The notes under the pieces are model-generated. The model was not told where the DNA came from, did not search any database, and saw only the letters and a list, made by a program, of their open reading frames with translations. Positions 3,503 to 22,470 of a stretch of 24,886 nucleotides of DNA are shown piece by piece. The stretch comes from a virus. The DNA lies in the IMG/VR virus record IMGVR_UViG_3300030085_003840, positions 1-24,886 of that record; one strand, written 5' to 3'. Within the stretch, counting starts at the first letter, position 1. The number at the start of each line of letters is the position of its first letter. Position numbers and translations under genes: made by a program.

Positions 3503-4132
3503 ATGTTTGCATTAGTCGAATCAGGATCAATAACAAAATATTTCGCAGGTAATAAAGGTATTACTATTGGAGCTACTCAATATCCAAAATCAATATTTAC
3601 GCTTTGGAGTGAAAGTGACAGAAATGCGATTGGTGTTTATACTGTTACAGTAAATCAAACAAATAAAAAAGATGAACAGTGGTATGTAAACACAGATATA
3701 ACTTACTCTTTTGCAAACAATAAAGTTACAGGTTCTTATGGAACAGCAACCCCTAAAGCGCATGCAGATACTTTATGGACACAAGCAGACTCAGATAATG
3801 GATTTTTACCAAGTGATAAAGAAGTTGGAGATGTAAAAACTGAGGGTTTAAAAACAGTATTAATTAGAAATATTAAAAAAGAAGCTGCTGTTATATTACA
3901 AGAAACAGATTGGTATATTATTAGAAAAGCAGATGCGGGCACAGCGGTGCCATCTTCAATCACAACACACAGAGCAGCGGTTAGAACGAAAGCAGCTGAA
4001 ATGGAAACAGCGATTACTAATGCAGCAGACACTGCAGCATTAGAAACTTTGTATACTAACGTTAATACAGGAACAGAGGAAAACCCTGTGATGGAAAGAC
4101 CTATTGGTCATCTGCCAACGTTGGAGGATTAA
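3503..4132 (+). CDS. Tail-fibre-associated protein, unknown
   Basis: This 209-residue protein starts MFALVESGSITKYFAGNK and begins two bases after the preceding fibre gene stops. The N-terminal ~100 residues are beta-rich. The C-terminal part contains ILQETDWYIIRKADAG followed by a helical segment RAAVRTKAAEMETAI. The W-Y-x-x-R-x-AD plus helix layout resembles C-terminal regions of phage tail fibre assembly or fibre-linked proteins (DUF4376-like). This match is from memory and weak. Its place between a beta-repeat fibre and a LamG/SPRY adhesin suggests a chaperone or connector for those fibres. Its last codons contain the GGAGG (4123-4127) that serves the next gene, and its stop overlaps that start codon. 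Confidence 0.5.
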   Translation: MFALVESGSITKYFAGNKGITIGATQYPKSIFTLWSESDRNAIGVYTVTVNQTNKKDEQWYVNTDITYSFANNKVTGSYGTATPKAHADTLWTQADSDNGFLPSDKEVGDVKTEGLKTVLIRNIKKEAAVILQETDWYIIRKADAGTAVPSSITTHRAAVRTKAAEMETAITNAADTAALETLYTNVNTGTEENPVMERPIGHLPTLED

Positions 4133-5562
4133 TGCCTACCATTCTTGGAGCAAATTCAGTTAGAGATACAGGTTACAATGTAGATAATTCAATAAGACTT
4201 GATGGTACAGATGACCATTTAAGTAGAACATTAACTCAATCGGGAAATAGTAAGGCTTTCACCTTTTCTTGTTGGATTAAAAGAAGCAAAAGAAATACAG
4301 ATGTGCCAAGATTAATACACATGGGTGGAAGCGGTGCATCACCAAGTTACTATATAAGTGTTCGTTTTAGAGATGATCAAAATGGTAGATTATCATTTTA
4401 CACTGAAGCAGGCGGTGATGGTTTTCAATTAAATACAAATGCACTATTTAGAGATACCACAGGTTGGATGCACGTTGTTGTTGCAGTCAATAGTGCGGCT
4501 ACAGAAGAAATTGATAGACAAAAAATGTATGTTAATGGTGTTCAAATAACTAGCTTTTCATCAACAACTGCTATGTCGTATAATGCTGATTTAGGTTATA
4601 ACGATTCGGGTAATGTTATTTATCTTTTTAGAAAACAAGAGGACTCAGATCATTTTCCTGGTTATGCTTGTGAAGTAGCTTATATAGATGGACAGCAATT
4701 AGCACCCACAGCATTTGGAGAGTTTGATGAAGATAGTCCAACAATTTGGAAACCAATAGATTTTAAAGATGATGTTACTTTTGGTAACAACGGATTTTAT
4801 CTTGAATTTAAAGATAGTTCAGATTTAGGTATTGATACGTCTGGAAATGGTAATGATTTTAATGTATATTCTAATAATCAATCTACAGATACTTGTACCA
4901 ATAACTTTGCCGTACTAAATGATTTAAATACTTATCCATCAAATCCACCAGCAGTTTCAGAAGGTAATCTTCAAGTTGTAACAGTAAATGCTGATCCTGG
5001 ATATTTTGGAGCTTCATCAACCATAGGAGTAACACAAGGTAAATGGTACGCAGAATTTAAACCCACAGCTTCAACAGCTGGTGTTGCATATTTAATAGGT
5101 GTTTCTCATGATCCATTTCAAATGGCTAAAAATGGTGCTACTGCTGGAAATCAATATAATGATACTGTTTGGGCATACTACGCAAACAATGGTAATCAAT
5201 ATCACGATGGATCAAATAGTTCTTATGGAAATTCTTACACAACAAATGATATTATTGGTGTAGCTCTTGATCTTGATAACCATAAATTATATTTTTCTAA
5301 AAATGGTACATTTCAAAATAGTGGAGATCCAACATCAGGATCGACAGGTACAGGTGCTATTTCTATAGACACAGGTAAAACTTATTTTTTTGTTTTAACT
5401 GATTTAGGTGGAGCGGTAAGTACATTTCAAGCTAACTTTGGCAACCCAATTTTTTCTATTTCATCAGGCAACTCGGATGCAAACGGACACGGTAATTTTG
5501 AATATTCGGTCCCTTCTGGTTATTTTGCATTATGCACTAAAAATTTAGCGGAGTTTGGGTAA
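4132..5562 (+). CDS. LamG + SPRY-like surface adhesin
   Basis: This 476-residue protein appears to combine two beta-sandwich, lectin-like domains. Residues about 20-200 look like a laminin-G/concanavalin A fold: SIRLDGTDDHLSR, then FTFSCWIKRS, then GWMHVVVAV, then a KMYVNGVQI strand. Residues about 300-476 look SPRY-like: GKWYAEFK, YLIGVSHD, IIGVALDLDNHKLYFSKNG and a late TYFFVLTDLGG strand. Such domains bind glycans or proteins, so a receptor-binding role on the tail is likely. GGAGG lies four bases before the ATG, and its TAA overlaps the next gene's ATG. SPRY domains are best known from eukaryotes but also occur in marine phage proteins. The domain calls rest on motif order only. Confidence 0.65.
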   Translation: MPTILGANSVRDTGYNVDNSIRLDGTDDHLSRTLTQSGNSKAFTFSCWIKRSKRNTDVPRLIHMGGSGASPSYYISVRFRDDQNGRLSFYTEAGGDGFQLNTNALFRDTTGWMHVVVAVNSAATEEIDRQKMYVNGVQITSFSSTTAMSYNADLGYNDSGNVIYLFRKQEDSDHFPGYACEVAYIDGQQLAPTAFGEFDEDSPTIWKPIDFKDDVTFGNNGFYLEFKDSSDLGIDTSGNGNDFNVYSNNQSTDTCTNNFAVLNDLNTYPSNPPAVSEGNLQVVTVNADPGYFGASSTIGVTQGKWYAEFKPTASTAGVAYLIGVSHDPFQMAKNGATAGNQYNDTVWAYYANNGNQYHDGSNSSYGNSYTTNDIIGVALDLDNHKLYFSKNGTFQNSGDPTSGSTGTGAISIDTGKTYFFVLTDLGGAVSTFQANFGNPIFSISSGNSDANGHGNFEYSVPSGYFALCTKNLAEFG

Positions 5563-6638
5563 TGGCTTATACAACTATCGATGATCCAGGTTTATACTTT
5601 AACACCATTAAATGGACAGGAAATGATAATGACTCTAGAGACATAGATGGCGTAGGATTCCAGCCCGACTGGGTCTGGGGTAAACGTAGAGATGATGCGG
5701 CAGGTCATAACTTACTAGATGTTGTTAGAGGTGCTGGTGAAAATGGAGAGCTACAATCAAATAGTAATGGTGTTGAAGGTGCTGGAGCACAAGATCGTTT
5801 TGGTTATCTTAGTGCATTTTTATCAGATGGTTTTAGAGTTGAAGATGGATCAGAAGCATCAGGTGATAAAGCATATTGGAATCAAAATAATGCAACGTAT
5901 GTGGCCTGGTGCTGGAAGGCAGGAGGTTCTGCATCATCTAACACAGATGGAAGTATTACAAGTTCAGTAAGTGCTTCAGCAACTGCTGGATTTAGTATTG
6001 TGTCTTATACAGGAAATGGCTCTGCTGGTGCAACGATTGGTCATGGATTAGGTTCAGCACCACAATGGATTATTGTTAAAAGAAGAGCTACTACAGAGGG
6101 TTGGCAAATATTCCATACTTCATTAGGAAATACAAAATATATGGAATTAAATTCTACTGCGTCTCCTGTAACTGCTTCAACTTTATGGAACGATACATCT
6201 CCATCATCTTCTGTTGTTACATTTGGAACAAGTACAAGAGTTAATGCAAGTTCCAACACTTACATAGCATATTGTTTTGCGGAGAAGAAGGGATATAGTC
6301 GTATAATCAAGTACACTGGAAATAATAGCTCGGACGGGACCTTCGTCTACCTCGGTTTTAGGCCCTCATTCTGTATCGTGAAGGACATTACATCCACTGA
6401 CCCGTGGCATATGTTCGATGACCAAAGAGATGATGATAGAAATGTTATAAACAGAAGATTATTTCCTAACAATTCAAATGCAGAAAATAGCTCTACTGAT
6501 ATTTGTGATTTTTGTAGTACAGGTATAAAATTTAGAGGAAACAATGATGGGTTTAATGGTAGTAGAGATTATATTCTCATAGCTTTTGCTCATTCTCCCA
6601 TAGTAAATTCTAATGGGGTGCCAAACAATGCGAGGTAG
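5562..6638 (+). CDS. Triple-repeat tail fibre-like protein
   Basis: This 358-residue protein contains three tandem copies of a motif of about 100-130 residues. Each has a [FG]-x-P-x-[WF]-[VIC]-x-x-K core (FQPDWVWGKRR near residue 32, SAPQWIIVKRRA near 165, FRPSFCIVKD near 267). Each is followed by a W/F-rich stretch and ends in a Y-[VI]-[AL]-[WYI]-[CA]-[WF] strand (YVAWCWKAG, YIAYCFAEKK, YILIAFAHS). I recognise this arrangement from marine phage tail-fibre-like proteins (DUF7483-type), from memory. Its ATG overlaps the previous stop, completing a fibre cluster of four genes. Positions about 6279-6423, at the start of the third repeat, use many more G/C-ending codons than the rest of the gene, a sign of recombination. 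Confidence 0.6.
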   Translation: MAYTTIDDPGLYFNTIKWTGNDNDSRDIDGVGFQPDWVWGKRRDDAAGHNLLDVVRGAGENGELQSNSNGVEGAGAQDRFGYLSAFLSDGFRVEDGSEASGDKAYWNQNNATYVAWCWKAGGSASSNTDGSITSSVSASATAGFSIVSYTGNGSAGATIGHGLGSAPQWIIVKRRATTEGWQIFHTSLGNTKYMELNSTASPVTASTLWNDTSPSSSVVTFGTSTRVNASSNTYIAYCFAEKKGYSRIIKYTGNNSSDGTFVYLGFRPSFCIVKDITSTDPWHMFDDQRDDDRNVINRRLFPNNSNAENSSTDICDFCSTGIKFRGNNDGFNGSRDYILIAFAHSPIVNSNGVPNNAR

Positions 6639-6641
6639 ATT

Positions 6642-8807
6642 ATGTTACAAAAACTAAGATTTGCACCAGGAATAAATAAACAAGTTAGTTCTTCTAGTGG
6701 TGAAGGACAATGGACTGATGGTGATAATATTAGATTTAGATATGGTATTCCTGAAAAGATAGGTGGTTGGACACAGCTTGGTGATACAAAAATTACGGGT
6801 CGTAATACTGCTATTCATCACTTTGTAACAACGAATGGTATTAAATACGCAGCGCTTGGAACTAATAGAGTATTGTATGTTTATTCAGGCGGTGTCTTCT
6901 ATGATATTCATCCAATTAAATCGACAACAACGTTATCAAGTGCGTTTACAACTACTAACGGATCATCAACGGTTACCATTACTTTTGCTAGTGCACACAA
7001 CATTGAAAATGTTGGAGACATTGTTTTACTAGATAACTTTTCATCAATTACTAATTCTAATTTTGTATCTACGGATTTTGATAATAAAAAATTTGCAGTC
7101 ACCACTATTCCATCTGATACGACGATTACAATTACTATGCCATCAGCAGAGTCTGGTTCTGGTGCAACGACATCTGGAGGTATACGAGTTCAGTATTATT
7201 ATCCTGTAGGTCTAGCACTAGAAACGGCTGCAACCGGTTGGGGCCTTGGACAATGGGGTGGTCGATTATCAGGACAGTTTACATCAACGTTATCTTCATC
7301 TCTAACCGATAGCGCCACAAGTTTAACGATGGCAAGTTCATCTTCGTTTTCTTCATCCGGAACGGTGTTGATTGGAACTGAACTTATTGCTTACACAGCA
7401 AACGATGACTCTGGAACATTATCAGGTTTAACAAGAGGATCACAAGGAACTACGGCTGCTGCTCACAGTTCTGGAGCAACGGTAACAGATGCTGCATCTT
7501 TTGCTGCTTGGAACAGTGCGCCATCAGGAGACGTTGTTACTGCACCAGGAATCTGGTCTCTTGATAACTTTGGTAACTTATTAATTGCAACGATTAACGG
7601 TGGTGAAACATTTAGTTGGAACTCAGAAGCAACCGCTGCAAACTCAACACGTGCAGCGATATTAGCAAATGCACCAACAGCAACCGCTACGACATTAGTT
7701 TCTACACCAGACAGACACTTAATATTTTTTGGAACTGAAACAACGATTGGTACAAAGTCAACTAAAGATCCAATGTTTATTAGGTTCTCAGATCAAGAAA
7801 GTATTGATGCAACCACATCGTATGCTCCATCATCAACCAACACTGCTGGTACACAGAGACTGGCCGACGGATCACGGATCGTTGGAGCCATTCGTGGTCG
7901 TGATGCAATCTATGTTTGGACTGACACGGCATTGTTTATCATGCGTTTTGTTGGACCACCGTTTACATTCTCGTTTCAACAAGTTGGAACGAACTGTGGT
8001 TTGATTGGACAGAACGCTGCCGTTGAAGTTGATGGAACAGCTTACTGGATGTCAGAGAATGGTTTTTTTAGATATACCGGTAAACTAGAATCATTACCGT
8101 GTTTAGTTGAAGACCATGTTTACGATGATTTAAATACAACGCCAAGACAACATATCAATGCTGGACTGAATAACTTGTTTGGTGAAGTGATGTGGTTCTA
8201 TCCAAACGCTGGATCGAATACAGTTAATCGAATGGTCTCTTATAATTATTTAGACTCATCAGCTGAAAGACCGATCTGGTCAATTGGTACACTAGATCGA
8301 ACGGCTTGGTCTGATTCTGCAATCTTTGGTAAACCGCATGCAACAGATTATGATGATAGTTCAAATGTAGATTCAACATCAACAACCTATGTACAAGGTA
8401 ATCAAGATGGTTGCTCTGTTTACTATCAACATGAAACAGGACTTAACCAAGTGTTGTCAGGACAAACCACAGCGATTGCTGCAAACATTAAATCAGGTGA
8501 TTTTGATATTGGTCAACGTGAAGGGTTACAAGGTGATGGTGATACCATGATGAGAGTCAGCCGTGTGTTACCAGATTTTTTATCGCAAACAGGAAACGCA
8601 AAAATACAATTAGATTTAAGAGATTTTCCAAACGATACTGCAGCAAGCTCATCACTTGGTCCGTTTACTGTTAGCCCTGCTACACAAAAAATAGACACAC
8701 GAGCTAGAGCTAGATTCATAGCACTCAAAGTTTCTAATGATTCTACAGATCAGTTTTGGAGACTTGGAACATTTAGAATCGATTACAACTCGGATGGTAG
8801 AAGATAA
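6642..8807 (+). CDS. Tail nozzle / tail accessory-like protein
   Basis: This 721-residue protein starts MLQKLRFAPGINKQ, followed by QWTDGDNIRFRYGIPEKIGG. This opening is typical of the large beta-rich tail hub proteins of short-tailed phages (P22 gp10 / T7 gp12-like role, sealing the tail after DNA packaging). Residues about 85-185 hold a beta insert (SSTVTITFASAHNIENVGD) similar to the partial gene at 1-374. Residues about 212-280 hold a second insert with GTELIAYTANDDSG and LTRGSQGTTAAAH, a module found in many phage structural proteins. The remainder (DNFGNLLIATINGGE, GRDAIYVWTDTALFIMRF, YWMSENGFFRYTG) looks like repeated four-stranded blades. GAGG lies six bases before the ATG. The structural role is likely; the exact equivalence is inferred. 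Confidence 0.6.
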   Translation: MLQKLRFAPGINKQVSSSSGEGQWTDGDNIRFRYGIPEKIGGWTQLGDTKITGRNTAIHHFVTTNGIKYAALGTNRVLYVYSGGVFYDIHPIKSTTTLSSAFTTTNGSSTVTITFASAHNIENVGDIVLLDNFSSITNSNFVSTDFDNKKFAVTTIPSDTTITITMPSAESGSGATTSGGIRVQYYYPVGLALETAATGWGLGQWGGRLSGQFTSTLSSSLTDSATSLTMASSSSFSSSGTVLIGTELIAYTANDDSGTLSGLTRGSQGTTAAAHSSGATVTDAASFAAWNSAPSGDVVTAPGIWSLDNFGNLLIATINGGETFSWNSEATAANSTRAAILANAPTATATTLVSTPDRHLIFFGTETTIGTKSTKDPMFIRFSDQESIDATTSYAPSSTNTAGTQRLADGSRIVGAIRGRDAIYVWTDTALFIMRFVGPPFTFSFQQVGTNCGLIGQNAAVEVDGTAYWMSENGFFRYTGKLESLPCLVEDHVYDDLNTTPRQHINAGLNNLFGEVMWFYPNAGSNTVNRMVSYNYLDSSAERPIWSIGTLDRTAWSDSAIFGKPHATDYDDSSNVDSTSTTYVQGNQDGCSVYYQHETGLNQVLSGQTTAIAANIKSGDFDIGQREGLQGDGDTMMRVSRVLPDFLSQTGNAKIQLDLRDFPNDTAASSSLGPFTVSPATQKIDTRARARFIALKVSNDSTDQFWRLGTFRIDYNSDGRR

Positions 8808-9379: not shown

Positions 9380-9805
9380 ATGAATGACGATATGCAGGTT
9401 GTTATCGAACTTTATAAAAAGTTTGATCGATATAAAGATAACACCTATGAAGAACTCTACCAACATATCTTGCCATCTTTTCAATTAGAACAGTATAAAA
9501 TACACAAGGACGGAGAAAACGTGATTGCTTTTACAAACTGGGCTTTTTTAAATAAAGAGGCTGAAAATAGATATTTAAAAACAACCGAGCTAGAACCGGG
9601 TGATTGGAATAGTGGTAGTCGACCATGGCACATCGATACAGTTTGTATAGGTAATATTATAAAAGTTCATCGTTGGACTAAAAAATATTTTACTGAGTTA
9701 TTAGGATTAAATAAATATGTAAGCTGGTTACGCGTATCACCAAACGGTGAAGTTTACAGAAAAACAAAAAGATTTACAAAAGGACATTATGGGCTCGAAA
9801 GTTAA
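9380..9805 (+). CDS. HlyC-like toxin-activating lysine acyltransferase
   Basis: This 141-residue protein matches the RTX toxin-activating acyltransferase family (HlyC, GNAT-like fold). That family moves a fatty acyl group from acyl carrier protein to lysines of a target protein. Visible landmarks in family order are ILPSFQLEQYKI (30-41), AFTNWAFLNKEAENRYL (50-66), EPGDWNSG (72-79) and WHIDTV (83-88). D86 corresponds to the family's conserved catalytic Asp. The catalytic His that lies upstream in HlyC seems replaced by Tyr18 in an ungapped alignment from memory; H29 is the only His before residue 42. It sits among virion genes, so a virion or host envelope protein is a likelier substrate than a toxin. 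No RTX repeats are seen in the window. Family confidence is high, activity uncertain. Confidence 0.8.
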   Translation: MNDDMQVVIELYKKFDRYKDNTYEELYQHILPSFQLEQYKIHKDGENVIAFTNWAFLNKEAENRYLKTTELEPGDWNSGSRPWHIDTVCIGNIIKVHRWTKKYFTELLGLNKYVSWLRVSPNGEVYRKTKRFTKGHYGLES

Positions 9806-13287: not shown

Positions 13288-16200
13288 ATGTCTTCGGCGA
13301 AAGAATTAGAAGCGATTAAAAGACTTCAAGAAAAAGATTTAGCAACCGAGCCTAAACCAATAGAAGATTTTGATATTACTGAAGGATATAATCCAGAAAT
13401 AAATAATGAAGTAACTCAATTGACAGCAGCCCTAGCAGGTGTTGTTTCTGGTGTATTTAAAATACCAGAGGGAATAGTATCGCTTGGTGCTGAACTTATT
13501 GACCTTGGTTTAGATACAAATACAGCTGCTTCAGTAGAACAATTTTTTGACAAAATAAATCCATTTGAAGAAATTGCAGAACAAAAAGCTGCAGGTAAAA
13601 TTACACAGGCTCTTACTCAAGTTGTATCTCTTGGAACTGCCGGTGCAAAAATTGCAACTGGATTAGCTAATAAAGCAATCAAAGCTAAACGTGCAGGTAA
13701 ATATCTTAATTTAAAATCACCTAATATAAGTAAAGGTATAGCAAAAGCAAAAAAAGAAAATTTATTATCAGGTAAACAAAAGTTTGCCGCAGTTGTTGTT
13801 GGTGGATCAGCTGGAGAAACTCTAGTTGCTGATGTTGAAGACATTGGAACATTTGGTGATGTATTTGAAGGAGGGCCAACAGAACTAGATCGAGATGTGA
13901 CTTCAGGAAGAGAAGATGCACAAAGAAAAATTTTAAATAGATTAAAGTTTGGATCTGAGTCTTTAGTTGCAACACCTTTTATTTACGGCACATTTAAAGC
14001 AGGTAAATTACTAGCGACAAGAGGCAAGCAACTTGCTTTTAGTGATAAAAAAATCGAAAGAGCTTTAAGTAGATTTGGTGGATTTTTTAGACCTCGTGGT
14101 GATGCACCAGAGGAAGTATTTTTAGCAAGGGTCAGAGAAAAAGGTAAAGAGATGGCAGATACTAATTTTGCCATGGAGCAGGTAAAAAGAATAGATAAAG
14201 AAGTAGACAAGATGTTTCCGGGGATTAAATCGTTTGTAGATAAATCAAACGATAAAAATAGGAATGAGTTTTTTAAAGATATAAATGATTTACTTTTTTC
14301 TGGTGATTTAAAAGCTAAAATCCCTTCCGATGCATATGATCGATTTATAAAAAGAGCTACAAAATTTAATGCAAGTGATGAGTCTGTTGATGTTATTTTA
14401 ACAGGAGTCAACAATGTTAGAAAACGTTTTGATGAGTTGTTAGATACTACTGCAAAAGGTCCTGTTGGTGTCACAACCATAAAAAAATTACAAACAAATT
14501 TAAGAGAGCTCATGGGGGATAGAGTTAAACAATATATTGGAACCACATACAGAATTTTTCAAAACCAAAACTTTGGTTTTTATACAAGATATAAACCAAC
14601 AGATGAAGTTGTTAATAGTGCTAAAAGATTATTCATGCGTTACGCTGCAAAAAATAAAAACCCAATCACAGAGCAACAAGCAGAAAATATGGTAAATGAA
14701 ATATTAGATCAAGCAAAACAATATAACCCAAAAACAAAATTACCCACGTTTACTTATGAAAATTTAACTGCAGGTGCAGACTCACCTGAAAATATAAAAA
14801 CATTTGCACAAACATTAAAACGTGAGTTGCCTGATGGTAAAGAAGAGTTAGAAGTTATTGGTAAAGGGTCAAAAATATTTAGAGAATTGTTTGGAGAAAT
14901 AGATGACGCAAGATATTCTATATATGAGGGCACTGCAAGACTGAGTAGTATTGCTAGAAAAAATGAATTATTTGATGAAATTTTAACCATAGATGATGCA
15001 CTAAAAGCAGCAAGAACACCAGAAACGCCACCAGGTCAAAGAGGATTCTTTTTTTCTTCTAAAATTGAAGCTCAACAAAATTTTGGTGGTGTGCCAAGAT
15101 CAGACATTGTTAAAATAGATGAGTATGTAGAAGAGTATTTTAAAGATGGAGTGCTGCTTAATAGACTTCAAGGCCAATATACAACAAGAGATATTGCAGA
15201 GGCTTTTTCAAACACGGCTAAAGTTTCTGAATTTATGAGAGGACAGTCTGGTGGTGCACTTGGTCGATTTGCATCATGGACGTGGAGAAATTTATTTTTA
15301 ACACCCAAAGCTGGATCACAATTTGCTAAAACTGTTTTATCTATACCCACACACGTTAGAAATTTTTTATCTTCATCTGCTTTTTCTTTAGCAAATGGTA
15401 CAATCTTTGTAGACCCTAGAGTTTATAAACGAGCAATGAAAGAGGCAGCTAAAGTTGTACAAGTTGGACTTAGAAAACCAGAAGCCATGGAAAAATACAG
15501 AGAGTATTTAAGATTAGGAATAGTAAATACAAACGTTAGAATGGGTGATCTTAAAAATTTAATGCGTGATGCTAAAATTAATGAAGTAGGTAATGTTGCG
15601 ACGGACAGTATTTTAAAACCTATGTTGGAAAAACTTGGCAAAATAGGTGAGGGGCTTGGAAGAACCACAAAAGCAACTGCACAAAAATTTCAGGATATTT
15701 ATGTAGCAGAAGATGATTTTTGGAAAATTATTAATTATGAAGTTGAGCTTCAAAAACGTATTAATGCTTATGAAAAATCAGGTATAAAAATAGGACCAAA
15801 TGCAATTGAAGAAATAAAACGAGAAACAGCTGAAATTGTAAAAAATACTATTCCAAATTATGCTTATGTAGGTGCATTTGTAAGAGCAATGCGTGTAACA
15901 CCATTTGGTAATTTTATGTCGTGGCCATCAGAAATATTTAGAACAGGGTATGGTATTATTAGACAAGGACTAAAAGATATTAAAGATCCTGTCACAGGAA
16001 GTATTAATTATTATAAAAGTACAAGTCCTACGAAATCAATTGGATTACAAAGATTGCTAGGTGCCACTATTGCATTTGGCGTGTTGCCCTACACTATTGT
16101 CAAAGGAGTTCAAGCTATGCAAGGTGTGTCTGATGAAGAGGCAGAGGCAGGAAAAGACTTTGTTGCTCCATGGTCTAAAGATTCACAATTGCTTTGGTTT

Positions 16201-17301
16201 AAAGATCCAAAAACAGGAGAGTTGTTTTATTCTGATTGGTCATCAAACAATGTGTACGATACTTTAACAAGGCCTGCTATGACTGTGTTAAACGCTGTTC
16301 AACAAGGTATTGAAGACGAAGAGGTATTATTAAAAGGTTTAGAAAGAGGAATCGTAAAAGCTGCAGCAGAGACTGCTGATCCATTTATTGGTGAGTCTAT
16401 ATTTACGGAAGCTGTTGCAGATATTATTGCAAGAGAAGGACGAACAAGAGACGGTAGAGTATTGTATACGGAAAACACACCAAGAGGGGAAAGATATGCT
16501 AGAATATTTAGACACCTTGCACAAACACAATTACCACAATATAAGCAGTTTGTTAGGGTATATGATTCAGCAACAGGTAAGCCAGATCGAAATGGTGATG
16601 TTATATCTGTTCCAAAACAATTAGCAGGTATATTTGGTTTTAGAATGATTAAAGTAAAACCAGAAAGAGCATTAAATTTTTATATAACTGATTTTATAAA
16701 AGGCGAGGAAAACTCTAGAAAAGAATTTACCGGAGGACAGGAAGGTGTGTTAAGACCTGGAAAAAATTCAAGAGATATTATTGAAAGATACTTCGTAGCT
16801 AACAAAATATTATTTGACGTACATAAAAAAATGAGAGGACATATTAGAAACGCAGAAAAATTAGGCACAAAAAAAGATGATATTTTTGAAGTTTTTAGAA
16901 AACGAGGTAGGAAAAGAGATTTTAATTATTTAACAGAAAATATATTTGACCCTTATTATCCAAGTAAAGCCATTAGACAAAAATTTGAAGAGATTACACC
17001 TCCTGGTAAAGTAAACCCTTTTCCACAGGCAGAACCAGTTTTAGATAGAATGTTTGAGGCATTTTCTAAAAAAAATTTAAGTGATCCAACGTTTGGTTTT
17101 AAATTAGAAGACTTCTTACCACCAGAGCAACCTAGTTTAAGTCAAGGTAATGTTCAACCAACACCACAACCTAACCCAGCTGTGGTCACACCACCTGTTC
17201 AACCAGCTGTGGCTGCACAAAGTGGCTTGACACCAACAGAGGAGGCTTTATTATCACCATCAGAAAAAGCAATCAGACTACGTCAAAGGGGACTAGGGTA
17301 A
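13288..17301 (+). CDS. Large internal virion / DNA-ejection protein
   Basis: This is the largest gene here (1337 residues), preceded by GGAGG eight bases before the ATG. Several Ala/Gly-rich hydrophobic stretches are spread along it: about residues 45-75 (LTAALAGVVSGVFKIPEG), 110-125, 172-185 (FAAVVVGGSAGE) and 918-940 (RLLGATIAFGVLPYTIVKG). They are separated by long basic/acidic helical regions such as LTPKAGSQFAKTVLS (about 672-686) and IPTHVRNFLSSSAF. A Pro/Gln-rich linker (about 1283-1308) leads to a short terminal motif LTPTEEALLSPSEKAIRLR. Size, membrane-prone helices and late position fit the huge proteins that short-tailed phages eject to carry DNA across the cell envelope (T7 gp16-like role). 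I see no clear lytic transglycosylase motif. A polyvalent-protein (LPD-type) identity is an alternative. Confidence 0.65.
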   Translation: MSSAKELEAIKRLQEKDLATEPKPIEDFDITEGYNPEINNEVTQLTAALAGVVSGVFKIPEGIVSLGAELIDLGLDTNTAASVEQFFDKINPFEEIAEQKAAGKITQALTQVVSLGTAGAKIATGLANKAIKAKRAGKYLNLKSPNISKGIAKAKKENLLSGKQKFAAVVVGGSAGETLVADVEDIGTFGDVFEGGPTELDRDVTSGREDAQRKILNRLKFGSESLVATPFIYGTFKAGKLLATRGKQLAFSDKKIERALSRFGGFFRPRGDAPEEVFLARVREKGKEMADTNFAMEQVKRIDKEVDKMFPGIKSFVDKSNDKNRNEFFKDINDLLFSGDLKAKIPSDAYDRFIKRATKFNASDESVDVILTGVNNVRKRFDELLDTTAKGPVGVTTIKKLQTNLRELMGDRVKQYIGTTYRIFQNQNFGFYTRYKPTDEVVNSAKRLFMRYAAKNKNPITEQQAENMVNEILDQAKQYNPKTKLPTFTYENLTAGADSPENIKTFAQTLKRELPDGKEELEVIGKGSKIFRELFGEIDDARYSIYEGTARLSSIARKNELFDEILTIDDALKAARTPETPPGQRGFFFSSKIEAQQNFGGVPRSDIVKIDEYVEEYFKDGVLLNRLQGQYTTRDIAEAFSNTAKVSEFMRGQSGGALGRFASWTWRNLFLTPKAGSQFAKTVLSIPTHVRNFLSSSAFSLANGTIFVDPRVYKRAMKEAAKVVQVGLRKPEAMEKYREYLRLGIVNTNVRMGDLKNLMRDAKINEVGNVATDSILKPMLEKLGKIGEGLGRTTKATAQKFQDIYVAEDDFWKIINYEVELQKRINAYEKSGIKIGPNAIEEIKRETAEIVKNTIPNYAYVGAFVRAMRVTPFGNFMSWPSEIFRTGYGIIRQGLKDIKDPVTGSINYYKSTSPTKSIGLQRLLGATIAFGVLPYTIVKGVQAMQGVSDEEAEAGKDFVAPWSKDSQLLWFKDPKTGELFYSDWSSNNVYDTLTRPAMTVLNAVQQGIEDEEVLLKGLERGIVKAAAETADPFIGESIFTEAVADIIAREGRTRDGRVLYTENTPRGERYARIFRHLAQTQLPQYKQFVRVYDSATGKPDRNGDVISVPKQLAGIFGFRMIKVKPERALNFYITDFIKGEENSRKEFTGGQEGVLRPGKNSRDIIERYFVANKILFDVHKKMRGHIRNAEKLGTKKDDIFEVFRKRGRKRDFNYLTENIFDPYYPSKAIRQKFEEITPPGKVNPFPQAEPVLDRMFEAFSKKNLSDPTFGFKLEDFLPPEQPSLSQGNVQPTPQPNPAVVTPPVQPAVAAQSGLTPTEEALLSPSEKAIRLRQRGLG

Positions 17302-17579: not shown

Positions 17580-17645
17580 TTATGCTAAAAAATATATAAA
17601 TGATACAGCAATAAAAGCTGCTAATAATATGGCTATTGCTCTCAT
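17580..17645 (-). CDS. 21-aa single-span membrane microprotein
   Basis: On the minus strand an ATG at 17645-17643 overlaps the helicase TGA (ATGA). It is preceded by AAAGGAG eight to nine bases upstream, inside the helicase gene's last codons. The frame encodes MRAIAILLAAFIAVSFIYFL plus one Ala, then TAA. It is a nearly pure membrane helix with one basic residue at the N-terminus. The good ribosome-binding site and the coupled start argue for real translation. The function is unknown: it is too small to assign, though holin-like, membrane-stress or regulator roles are possible. Confidence 0.5.
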   Translation of the reverse strand: MRAIAILLAAFIAVSFIYFLA

Positions 17646-19075
17646 ATCCACTCCTTTAATTCTTCACCCATAATTTGAGTGGCAATGTTAACTTTTGTTC
17701 GAAGAGCTGCAACAATTCTTTCATCAATTGTTTTTTCGCAAATAAGATCAATGTAGGTCATATTTTTCTTTTGACCAATACGATCAATTCTTGCTTCGGA
17801 CTGTTGACGTTTTTCAAGATCATATCCGTTTGAATAATAAATCATAGTTGATGCAGCTGTTAACGTAATTCCGTATCCTCCTGTTTGTGGCGTTCCAACC
17901 AAGAATCTTGTAGGACTGGATAGATCTTGAATCTGTTTAATCGCTTTTTGGCGATCCTCTGTAGTCGTGTCACCATAATACGTAACGATTGAATTACTTC
18001 CATATTTTTTTTCAACCTCCTTTACAATTGTTTCAATATCGTGTCGGTAGTGAGCCCAGATAATAGCTTTGCCTTCAATCTCATCCAACACGTTCATCAG
18101 TTCACCTATTCTATTATTTTTAACTTCCTGAATCTCACCATCATCCGATGCAAAATGACCACAAGTAATTTGATGTAATCGCATGAGCTGTGTAATAACT
18201 GTGGCTGTCGTTACTTGCTTGCCGTTCAAATATGCAAGCGCCATTTCTTTCATTTGACGATATGTTTTCTTTTGTTCGTCTGTCATTTGTATCAAACGCT
18301 TCATGTATGTTTTTTCAGGAAGATCTAAACAGTCATCTTTTAAACATCTGTATGAAAAAGACTTTATTTTTTCTGATAATTCTTTTAAATTTCTATATGC
18401 TACAACGATATTAACCTGACGACCAGACACATTTATTGATTTCATTATAGCATAACGAGTTCTAAACGTATAATAAGAGTGATGCCCCAATAACCACGGA
18501 TCAAGGAACTGACATTGACTATACAAATCAAGCGGTGATTTAGTTACTGGTGATCCTGTTAAAATTCTTCTGTAAATACATTGTTTTGATAATGATAAAA
18601 TGTTTTTTGTTCTTTTAGCATTAGGGTTTTTTATAGTTGTCGACTCATCAATTGCCATTAATGCTCTGTGACAAGATAAAAATTTATTTGCAAACTCCAT
18701 ACCTTTTTTAGTTGAGAATGCCTCAACGTTCATAACTAATACGTTTAAATGTTCACCTGTTTGAAATAAAGTATTTAATTTTTTATTTTGTTTATCATTA
18801 ATTAAGGCCTGCCAAACCACTACATTTTTTTCTATATGGTCTGCCATGTGAGTTGGTATTTCTGAATCAGACCAGTTTTTATAAACACCTTTGGGTGCCA
18901 CAATTAGGACACCATTGATCTTACCGTTATCATAAAGCATGGATATGTTATCAATCAATACTTTAGATTTACCTGTACCCATCTCCATAAAATAGGCAAA
19001 GACTTCTTTTTTCCACGACATTTCTAACGCTTTTAATTGATGCGCGAATGGCTTTGTTTTAAATTTGTAATTCAT
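17642..19075 (-). CDS. SNF2-family DNA helicase/translocase
   Basis: This 477-residue SF2 ATPase shows the helicase motifs in order. They are HQLKAL (12-17, Q-like motif), Walker A MGTGKS (32-37), IVAPKGVYKNW (58-68, motif Ia) and Walker B-type DEST (143-146). LTGSP (172-176, motif III), GTPQTGGYGITLTAA (motif V) and QSEARIDRIGQ (425-435, motif VI with arginine fingers) complete the set. The RIGQ ending is characteristic of SNF2-like proteins, which translocate on double-stranded DNA. No nuclease, methylase or accessory domain is fused, and the length is just the two RecA-like lobes. It is the only long minus-strand gene. It is divergent from the replication genes, with which it probably acts in DNA remodelling, repair or replication. 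The exact role in the phage is unknown. Confidence 0.92.
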   Translation of the reverse strand: MNYKFKTKPFAHQLKALEMSWKKEVFAYFMEMGTGKSKVLIDNISMLYDNGKINGVLIVAPKGVYKNWSDSEIPTHMADHIEKNVVVWQALINDKQNKKLNTLFQTGEHLNVLVMNVEAFSTKKGMEFANKFLSCHRALMAIDESTTIKNPNAKRTKNILSLSKQCIYRRILTGSPVTKSPLDLYSQCQFLDPWLLGHHSYYTFRTRYAIMKSINVSGRQVNIVVAYRNLKELSEKIKSFSYRCLKDDCLDLPEKTYMKRLIQMTDEQKKTYRQMKEMALAYLNGKQVTTATVITQLMRLHQITCGHFASDDGEIQEVKNNRIGELMNVLDEIEGKAIIWAHYRHDIETIVKEVEKKYGSNSIVTYYGDTTTEDRQKAIKQIQDLSSPTRFLVGTPQTGGYGITLTAASTMIYYSNGYDLEKRQQSEARIDRIGQKKNMTYIDLICEKTIDERIVAALRTKVNIATQIMGEELKEWI

Positions 19076-19088
19076 AATTTAATTTTTT

Positions 19089-19136
19089 CTTTCTATTGAC
19101 AGGGCCTACCAAAAGTATATAGCTTTGTCAAGAAAG
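19089..19136. promoter_or_regulatory. Inverted repeat, candidate operator
   Basis: CTTTCTATTGACA at 19089-19101 and TGTCAAGAAAG at 19126-19136 form an inverted repeat whose arms (CTTTCT, then TGACA) differ only by two inserted bases. The arms are 24 bases apart, and the centre falls on the overlapping -10-like sequences. It lies in the 63-bp gap between divergent genes, so it could bind a dimeric regulator controlling both directions. This is inference from symmetry only. Confidence 0.4.
19096..19123 (+). promoter_or_regulatory. Sigma70-like early promoter
   Basis: A perfect TTGACA at 19096-19101 is followed after 16 bases by TATAGC at 19118-19123. Transcription would start about 19130, leaving a very short leader before the ATG at 19139. 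It is placed to drive the replication block. On the other strand TATACT (19119-19114) could be a -10 for the SNF2 gene, but I see no -35 at good spacing for it. Use of host-like sigma70 signals would suit early phage genes. Confidence 0.5.
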
Positions 19137-19138
19137 TT

Positions 19139-19498
19139 ATGAAAGAAAATATTGTATATGTATTACAAGATGTACCAGGGACACGAGATGGTCGTCCTAA
19201 AATTAATATTATTGGTGCAGCTGAATATGGTGAGTTAAAAATTTTATTGCCAGAAACTTCGCAAATTATTTTTTCTCCAGGTCCTTTAATTTTTAAATTA
19301 AGAAAATTATTAAAAGACTTTAAACCAGAAGATTACATTTTACTCACAGGTGACCCTGCAATTATTGGAGTCGCATGTTGTATTGTTTCAGATATGAACA
19401 ATGGTTCTTTCAATCTTTTGAAATGGGATAAACAAGAAAGAAGATATTACCCAATAAAAATTAATATCTACGAGAAAGGTAAAATAGATGACAATTAA
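19139..19498 (+). CDS. Unknown early phage protein, 119 aa
   Basis: This 119-residue protein, first in the replication block, begins MKENIVYVLQDVPGTRDGRP. It has an ILLPETSQIIFSPGP segment, then FKLRKLLKDFKPEDYILLTGDPAIIGVACC (split here by a likely turn at KPED), and a basic end. The LLTGDPAIIGVA stretch is hydrophobic and could be buried. I recognise the general sequence from marine phage replication modules but know no function. It overlaps the next gene by 11 bases, so translation is coupled. It could be an early regulator or a host take-over protein, but nothing in the sequence decides this. Confidence 0.7.
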   Translation: MKENIVYVLQDVPGTRDGRPKINIIGAAEYGELKILLPETSQIIFSPGPLIFKLRKLLKDFKPEDYILLTGDPAIIGVACCIVSDMNNGSFNLLKWDKQERRYYPIKINIYEKGKIDDN

Positions 19499-20853: not shown

Positions 20854-22470
20854 ATGGAGAGCAGGTTTATAAAAATATTTTCTGGTCTAGAGCGTAACTA
20901 TGGTTACTGTAATGTTAAAAATGGTTATACCGATCCCGATACAGGAAAATTAAAATTCAAGCCAGGTGACTATGGTTGGTCACAAGATGCAGTTACAGAC
21001 CAAGACTACATCGATCACTTAAACGGAGAAAAATCTATTGGTATTCAACCTTGTGACGATGAGGGTATGGCACAGTTTGGTGCGATCGATATTGATCCTG
21101 AACGATACAAAGATTTCAACGCAAAATATTTTTTTGACATTATTGTAAAATGGGAATTACCGGTTGTACCAGTAAAATCTAAAAGCGGTGGTCTACATAT
21201 CTTTGTATTTTTAGATAAAAAAATTAAAGCAAGTTTAATCAGAAATTTTTTAGATAAATTATTATTTACATTTAAATTAAAACAAACCACAGAAATATTT
21301 CCAAAGCAAACAGAATTAGGAACTACAGACGATGGTACAAAGATTAATGGTAACTTTATTAATCTACCTTACTACAATAAAACAGAACGTGTTGCAGTTA
21401 ACCCACATGATGGAACAGAATTTACATTAGAACAATTTATACAAGTTGTAGAAACAAATTTACAAACACAAGATTCGATAGAAAATTTTGGTTCAGAGAT
21501 AATAAATAAACAATTAAAATTTGGAGACGAAGAGTTTAACGATGGTCCACCATGTTTGCAAGCGTTAACTCAAAATAAATTAACTGACGGACGAGATAGA
21601 TTTCTATATAATTATATGGTTTTTTCAAAAAAGAAATATCCTGATGACTGGGAGAAAAAAGTAGAAGCTGCAGCTAGAAAGTATTTTGAGTATTCTCCAG
21701 AGTGGGATGATAACAGAGTTAAATTAAAAATTAGATCATGGAAAAAAGAAACCAAGGGACATACTTGCACCGAGGATCCAATCGTTAATCATTGTGTAAA
21801 ATCAGTTTGTGTTAGAAGAAAGTTTGGTATTGCATCTGACAAAAAGAAAACTTGGCCGATGTTATCAAACTTAGTGAAGTATGATTACAAACCAGAACCA
21901 GAGTTTTGGTTGACCGTCACATTACCAGATAAAGGTAGTGGAGAAACTAAAAAACAAATCGTTGCACGAAGCATTGATAAACTAATTGAAATGCGAGAAC
22001 TAAGAAAAATAATTGCAGCGCAGACATCAGTTATCCCACCAAAAATAAAAGACAACGATTTTCAAATTATTTTAGATACACTAAAAGATACAGAAGAAGT
22101 TATGCAACCAGCTTCTGGAACTAGCCCAGAGGAACAACTACATAAATATTTAAACGATTATATTTTCCAAGTCATTGCAAAAACTTATGCATCATTTAAA
22201 AATGGATCAACACTGATTGAAGAAGATCATGCATATTTTGTTTACGAACATTTTTTTAATCATTTAAAAAATAAAGATTGGAGAATAAAAGAAGATAGAA
22301 CTGCAACACTCATGCAGAAAAATTATCATGCAGTGTTTGGTGAAAGAAAAAGATTTCCTAAATCAAAAGCACAAGGCATCTACTGTGTAAAAGTATCTTT
22401 AAAATATTTTACAAAAGAAGAAACCATGGATGAGGTCGTTGAGATGAAAAATCAAGATGACATCCTGTAA
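20854..22470 (+). CDS. Archaeo-eukaryotic-type primase (AEP)
   Basis: This 538-residue protein starts with an AEP primase core. The metal-binding DID motif (D79, D81 in GAIDIDPERY) is followed by SGGLH (111-115), the nucleotide-binding His motif, and FINLPYYN (168-175), as in TOTE/phage-type AEPs. These enzymes make the primer for DNA synthesis. Residues about 230-345 form a C-terminal domain with PPCLQAL, a GRDRFLYNYMVF helix and four cysteines (C234, C305, C314, C319). These resemble the helical primase C-terminal domain that in PriL-like proteins holds an Fe-S cluster. The last ~180 residues are helical and unassigned. It overlaps the SF1 helicase gene by 14 bases. Thus helicase and primase are separate proteins, unlike T7 gp4. 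Start choice: no other Met occurs in the first 70 residues. Confidence 0.85.
   Translation: MESRFIKIFSGLERNYGYCNVKNGYTDPDTGKLKFKPGDYGWSQDAVTDQDYIDHLNGEKSIGIQPCDDEGMAQFGAIDIDPERYKDFNAKYFFDIIVKWELPVVPVKSKSGGLHIFVFLDKKIKASLIRNFLDKLLFTFKLKQTTEIFPKQTELGTTDDGTKINGNFINLPYYNKTERVAVNPHDGTEFTLEQFIQVVETNLQTQDSIENFGSEIINKQLKFGDEEFNDGPPCLQALTQNKLTDGRDRFLYNYMVFSKKKYPDDWEKKVEAAARKYFEYSPEWDDNRVKLKIRSWKKETKGHTCTEDPIVNHCVKSVCVRRKFGIASDKKKTWPMLSNLVKYDYKPEPEFWLTVTLPDKGSGETKKQIVARSIDKLIEMRELRKIIAAQTSVIPPKIKDNDFQIILDTLKDTEEVMQPASGTSPEEQLHKYLNDYIFQVIAKTYASFKNGSTLIEEDHAYFVYEHFFNHLKNKDWRIKEDRTATLMQKNYHAVFGERKRFPKSKAQGIYCVKVSLKYFTKEETMDEVVEMKNQDDIL

Follow-up and report, generated by a model that had tools for sequence, protein, structure and literature searches.

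An inverted repeat conserved between SNF2 helicase and replication genes of HTVC027P-related phages is probably a pair of overlapping divergent promoters

In a phage related to the marine pelagiphage HTVC027P, a short inverted repeat lies between the SNF2 helicase gene and the replication genes, and we propose that it consists of a pair of divergent sigma-70 promoters that overlap and are used by host RNA polymerase, an interpretation to which we assign a probability of roughly 0.7. The phage is represented by the 24,886-base virus record IMGVR_UViG_3300030085_003840, which we analyzed along its whole length and refer to as the window. The arrangement is compact and would consist of basically ordinary promoters, and it is strikingly conserved in related phages.

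The repeat occupies a gap of 63 nt (19076–19138) between two genes transcribed in opposite directions. On one side is an SNF2-type helicase gene (17642–19075, minus strand, with its ATG at 19075; PF00176, 8.7e-24; PF00271; phrog_62), the product of which shares 64% identity with the SNF2 protein from Pelagibacter phage HTVC027P and 62% with the one from phage 023Pt_psg01. On the other is a Pam3_gp32-like gene of unknown function (19139–19498, plus strand, with its ATG at 19139; PF23992, 4.1e-31), the first gene of a replication block that continues on the plus strand with gp33-like and gp34-like genes and those for a primase, a UvrD-type helicase, and DNA polymerase A. The primase (20854–22470, plus strand) has a match to PF22548 (7.5e-15), the archaeo-eukaryotic primase domain found in TOTE conflict systems, and amid the structural genes a 141-residue protein (9380–9805, plus strand) matches the HlyC family of RTX toxin acyltransferases (PF02794, 1.9e-16), which is unexpected in a phage. 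The Pfam scan covered 17 window proteins, leaving out those encoded at 4132–5562, 5562–6638, 6642–8807, and 13288–17301. No terminators were found between 18000 and 20500, compared with 1.5 expected from shuffled sequences, and a replication origin at the gap was considered and rejected, as the negative GC skew over 17–19 kb tracks the minus-strand SNF2 gene.

Reading the plus strand directly, the left arm of the repeat is CTTTCTATTGACA (19089–19101) and the right arm is TGTCAAGAAAG (19126–19136). When reverse complemented, the right arm reads CTTTCTTGACA, which matches CTTTCTATTGACA (11 versus 13 nt) only if a slip of 2 nt is allowed, and an ungapped repeat finder does not include the pair among the 25 listed of its 28 inverted pairs; the mirror arms reported in the initial annotation are thus present within the SNF2/gp32-like gap, with this slip. 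The core pattern TTGACA-N15..35-TGTCAA occurs once in the window (19096–19131, with N24), whereas shuffled sequences have a mean of 0.11 copies and at least one copy in 11 of 100 shuffles, and within one window the dyad core is only mildly unusual. It is the conservation in relatives, in 79 of 81 sequences including the window, that places the dyad beyond chance.

The relatives are the best 80 of 561 viral loci in IMG/VR ranked by SNF2 similarity, and a CTTTCT...GTCAA pair is found in 78 of them. The starts of the two motifs are 36–40 nt apart, and exactly 38 nt apart in 56 of the 79 sequences when the window is included; the dyad annotated from the window alone therefore recurs in related phages at near-fixed spacing. 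In the other two relatives (L044 and L051), the right arm is absent and the sequence upstream of SNF2 is different, with CTTTCT still present before SNF2. We also scanned the viral collection with the pattern CTTTCTNTTGA-N24..32-GTCAAGAA, scoring for SNF2 or gp32 on the same stretch, exact distance aside; at least 120 stretches matched, and 119 loci were analyzed. Among the matches listed, 90 of the 119 have at least one of SNF2 and gp32 on the matching stretch (86 have both), and these 90 use gaps of 27, 28, and 29 nt only (66, 10, and 14 loci, respectively), whereas the gaps in the remaining 29 listed loci, without SNF2 or gp32, are scattered over 24–32 nt. Because the SNF2/gp32 loci are restricted to gaps of 27–29 nt, we conclude that the dyad is a feature of this gene junction, with constrained spacing. 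Four of the matches in which SNF2 and gp32 were undetected (L111, L144, L145, and L147) have in common CTTTCTTTTGAT and an ending of TGTCAAGAA, separated by an ATTATA stretch, as expected of an ordinary promoter with a purine-rich leader on the other strand.

The proposal that the TTGACA arms are −35 boxes of a divergent promoter region is supported, with −10-like hexamers enriched at compatible spacing on both strands of the relatives. These were counted in 30 sequences thinned at an identity cutoff of 85%, with a −10-like hexamer being one that matches the consensus at 4/6 positions or better. The putative plus −35 box (19096–19101) is the consensus hexamer TTGACA, and 28 of the 30 thinned relatives have at least 4/6 matches here; in the window it is followed at N16 by TATAGC (19118–19123; 4/6), such that TTGACA-N16-TATAGC scores 10/12. 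A plus-strand −10-like hexamer at N16–18 is present in 22 of the 30 sequences, with a shuffle mean of 13.8 and one of 1,000 shuffles as high, although this excess loses significance under a weighted −10 matrix (160 of 2,000 shuffles as high); good plus −10 hexamers are absent from 8 of the 30. Owing to alternating TA in the region, N15 and N19 score nearly as high as N16–18 with the weighted matrix. A generic promoter scanner reports 7 promoter-like sites between 18000 and 20500, with no excess over shuffled sequences (9.5), and it omits the plus promoter because TATAGC lacks the final T.

On the minus strand, the candidate −35 box is the TTGACA of the right arm (19126–19131), the GTCAA of which is kept in 78 of the 80 relatives and in 74 of the 78 loci used from the HTVC027P-type set described below. 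Twenty-three of the 30 thinned sequences have a minus −10-like hexamer at N16–18, and none of 1,000 shuffles is as high (mean, 14.0); here the enrichment holds with the weighted matrix (11 of 2,000 shuffles as high), and a good minus −10 is absent from 7 of the 30. In the window itself, the position at N17 (19103–19108) has the poor hexamer TAGGCC (2/6), from which transcription would start at about 19096. The initial annotation had centered the dyad on two overlapping −10 sequences, TATAGC on the plus strand and TATACT on the minus strand; the first holds, at N16 from the left TTGACA, but the second (19114–19119, minus strand; 5/6) is just 6 nt from the right TTGACA, a spacer that rules out this pairing. 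TATACT thus appears usable as a minus −10 only without the right-arm −35. The generic scanner pairs it with TTCATA at N18 (9/12), and, whether alone or with TTCATA, it would start transcription at about 19107, approximately 23 bp from the plus start. Either ~19096 or ~19107 may be the minus start in the window.

Fifteen of the 30 thinned sequences have both −10 hexamers together with an acceptable plus −35, a number not reached in any of 1,000 shuffles (mean, 6.2), and in these two-promoter relatives the predicted starts are 35–36 bp apart in 14 and 32 bp apart in one. With starts 35–36 bp apart, each −35 would therefore cover the start region of the opposite promoter. In the window, the left-arm −35 would serve the plus promoter, which is predicted to start at about 19130, 7 nt past the −10, and to transcribe the gp32-like gene and the replication block, and the right-arm −35 would serve the minus promoter, which is predicted to start at ~19096 (or ~19107 if TATACT is used) and to transcribe SNF2. 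Each −35 would sit on the other promoter's start region and both promoters would share the same 36 bp, so simultaneous binding of two polymerases is not expected.

AGAAAG (19089–19094, minus strand) would lie near the 5′ end of the SNF2 transcript, and in 78 relatives, a set not thinned for relatedness, it is 35–39 nt (SD 1.0) from the minus TTGAC, as against 2–21 nt (SD 3.7) from the SNF2 ATG. A plain Shine-Dalgarno role for AGAAAG was rejected, as its distance to the SNF2 ATG varies and that to the minus TTGAC is nearly constant. The mirror symmetry of the arms may be explained by the same consensus boxes on both strands together with purine-rich AGAAAG at both transcript starts. On the plus side, the window leader is predicted to be about 9 nt long. 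Among the 77 of 81 sequences that were readable for this count (L039 and L045 are too short, L044 and L051 have no dyad, and near-copies were kept), an acceptable plus promoter is missing from 17 and a usable ATG from one; for the remaining 59, the predicted leader is 0–3 nt in 20, 6–9 nt in 31, and 11–20 nt in 8. If transcription starts where predicted, many gp32-like mRNAs would be leaderless or nearly so. In seven loci (L025, L027, L052, L053, L067, L070, and L078), transcription of the gp32-like gene is predicted to begin exactly at the A of its first in-frame ATG, and these transcripts would be leaderless if the start is right.

A distinctly less probable interpretation is that of a bidirectional promoter with a shared −10 region, in which the TATAGC and TATACT of the initial annotation overlap at 19118–19119, the starts are ~23 bp apart, and the right TTGACA does not act as a −35 in the window phage. 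TATACT scores 5/6 by itself and 9/12 with TTCATA at N18, and 23 bp is one common separation in Escherichia coli (PMC12825309); similar geometry is also predicted in HTVC027P-type phages. However, this reading leaves unexplained both the retention of GTCAA in nearly all of the relatives and the minus −10 hexamers 16–18 nt from the GTCAA side in 23 of the 30 thinned sequences, and a TATA on the plus strand yields a TATA on the minus strand for free. 

The HTVC027P-type phages bear on the same question. This set has 80 loci, two of which (L249 and L252) were excluded as their matches stop short of the N-terminus; four others (L256, L260, L271, and L278) have no CTTTCT, and the other 74 reduce to 37 distinct segments. 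All 37 have a minus −10 hexamer of at least 4/6 at N16–18 from TTGAC, and the 14 segments inspected have TTGACT-17-TATATA. The plus promoter, taken as the best match over many offsets and without a shuffle control, has TTTACT-18 followed by TATAAT or TATAGT in the 14 inspected, and the predicted starts are 21 bp apart in 33 of the 37. GTCAA is retained in these phages even though the plus start lies upstream, which supports GTCAA as a minus −35. HTVC027P itself (MN698241) has the same gene order, minus-side TTGAC, and CTTTCT as the window, but lacks the left TTGACA, and its predicted plus promoter, TTTACT-18-TATAAT, is further upstream and overlaps the minus −10. The HTVC027P type thus appears to be a tighter version with overlapping −10s, in which the minus promoter is kept and the plus promoter has moved. 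In contrast, 023Pt_psg01 (MW574966) has the window-type dyad at this junction, with CTTTCTAGTTGACA ... TGTCAAG between SNF2 and the first plus gene, although there are 25 nt between the hexamers and a longer stretch before the annotated plus-gene start. When representatives of the 80 HTVC023P-type loci were judged by eye, the CTTTCT...GTCAA pair was seen in none of these representatives, and the five DSL-LC04-type loci, also judged by eye, keep CTTTCT and have no TTGACA/TGTCAA arms. Copies of CTTTCTNNTTGA with at most one mismatch number 54 in total in HTVC027P, 023Pt_psg01, HTVC023P, and DSL-LC04 versus 45 for the reversed pattern, and 7 versus 0 on the DSL-LC04 reverse strand.

Published bacterial bidirectional promoters provide the closest comparison, as described in PMC12825309 and PMC10268837: they too have divergent sigma-70 starts on one short stretch, with −35s flanking the −10 region. 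They are defined by starts 7–25 bp apart around a shared −10 (PMC10268837), whereas in the window clade the predicted starts are mostly 35–36 bp apart with separate −10s, and in the window 34 bp apart (23 via TATACT). Judged by these predicted starts, the window-clade geometry would fall slightly outside the definition, and that of the sister clade, at 21 bp, inside it.

The initial annotation also proposed the arms as possible halves of an operator, and a repressor or activator of phage or host origin that binds them as half-sites could switch between SNF2 and the replication genes; we regard this as quite unlikely. The mirror symmetry extends past the −35 boxes and arm spacing is nearly fixed in relatives, as an operator would have it, but the arm-to-arm gap ranges over 21–26 nt across the 30 thinned sequences, with 24 nt the commonest, and half-site spacing is therefore not fixed. 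The AAGAAAG of the right arm is kept in only 11 of 56 thinned relatives, nine of which fall in a single group that includes the window (support 86/91) in a tree on which only the right-arm label was used, and L044 and L051, which have no right arm, still carry the left CTTTCT. All 13 thinned sequences with a left TTGACA also have a right TTGACA, compared with 12 of the 17 that have other left boxes, which would favor an operator; this association (13/0 and 12/5, tallied by hand from the 30 thinned sequences) has a Fisher p of 0.052 uncorrected for kinship and neither shows nor excludes co-change, so changes in the two −35 boxes are not clearly matched. Overlapping divergent promoters with a dedicated regulator and symmetric operators are familiar from the tet and mer systems, and the dyad resembles these in having two opposite promoters on one short DNA stretch; they differ in the dedicated regulator and symmetric operators, none of which was found in the window. 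Further sites and a regulator gene, which the initial annotation suggested seeking, did not emerge: in the window, a genome fragment, there is one other match with two mismatches, as expected by chance and not a good second site, and the 17 Pfam-scanned proteins of this fragmentary record include no transcription regulator.

That the plus promoter alone is real, SNF2 being transcribed from elsewhere and the right arm forming part of the leader and ribosome-binding region that precedes the gp32-like gene, is very improbable: the window's minus hexamer is indeed poor, but GTCAA is kept regardless of how far it lies from the start of gp32, and relatives show an enrichment of correctly spaced minus −10 hexamers.

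If the dyad is a pair of overlapping promoters, a switch through polymerase exclusion may operate by analogy, as steric constraints are described as barring two polymerases from binding simultaneously at a bidirectional promoter (PMC12825309). In the same source, however, the five bidirectional promoters tested in E. coli are too weak for competition until one direction is activated, and a real switch at the dyad should therefore not be assumed. We put forward only tentatively, and with some doubt, a fuller model in which the direction of polymerase binding would set the ratio of SNF2 to replication transcripts free of a regulator, many plus transcripts would be leaderless or nearly so, and the pair would have shifted between the 35-bp and 21-bp geometries in sister clades, with the SNF2 promoter fixed. 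Host polymerase would be the probable reader in the window phage, as the genome of HTVC027P carries no RNA polymerase gene and the phage is described as depending on that of its host (PMC12753301). The designation of the region as "early" is doubtful by analogy; PMC12753301 describes all early genes in HTVC027P RNA-seq data as having unknown functions, and by that account the helicase and primase, which are annotated, would not belong to the early class. The word "promoter" is absent from the main text of PMC12753301 and of PMC9599517, and the HTVC027P RNA-seq text gives no start sites; among the publications listed by a literature search, many of them unrelated, none concerned promoters of these phages.

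Should the interlocked arrangement prove true, its position at the head of a replication block and its lack of an evident regulator would make it a natural setting in which to ask whether gene ratios are set by opposing polymerases, and how bidirectional geometries change from one to another in evolution. Even if the dyad is simply two ordinary promoters, it would still provide a sound promoter assignment for these phages.
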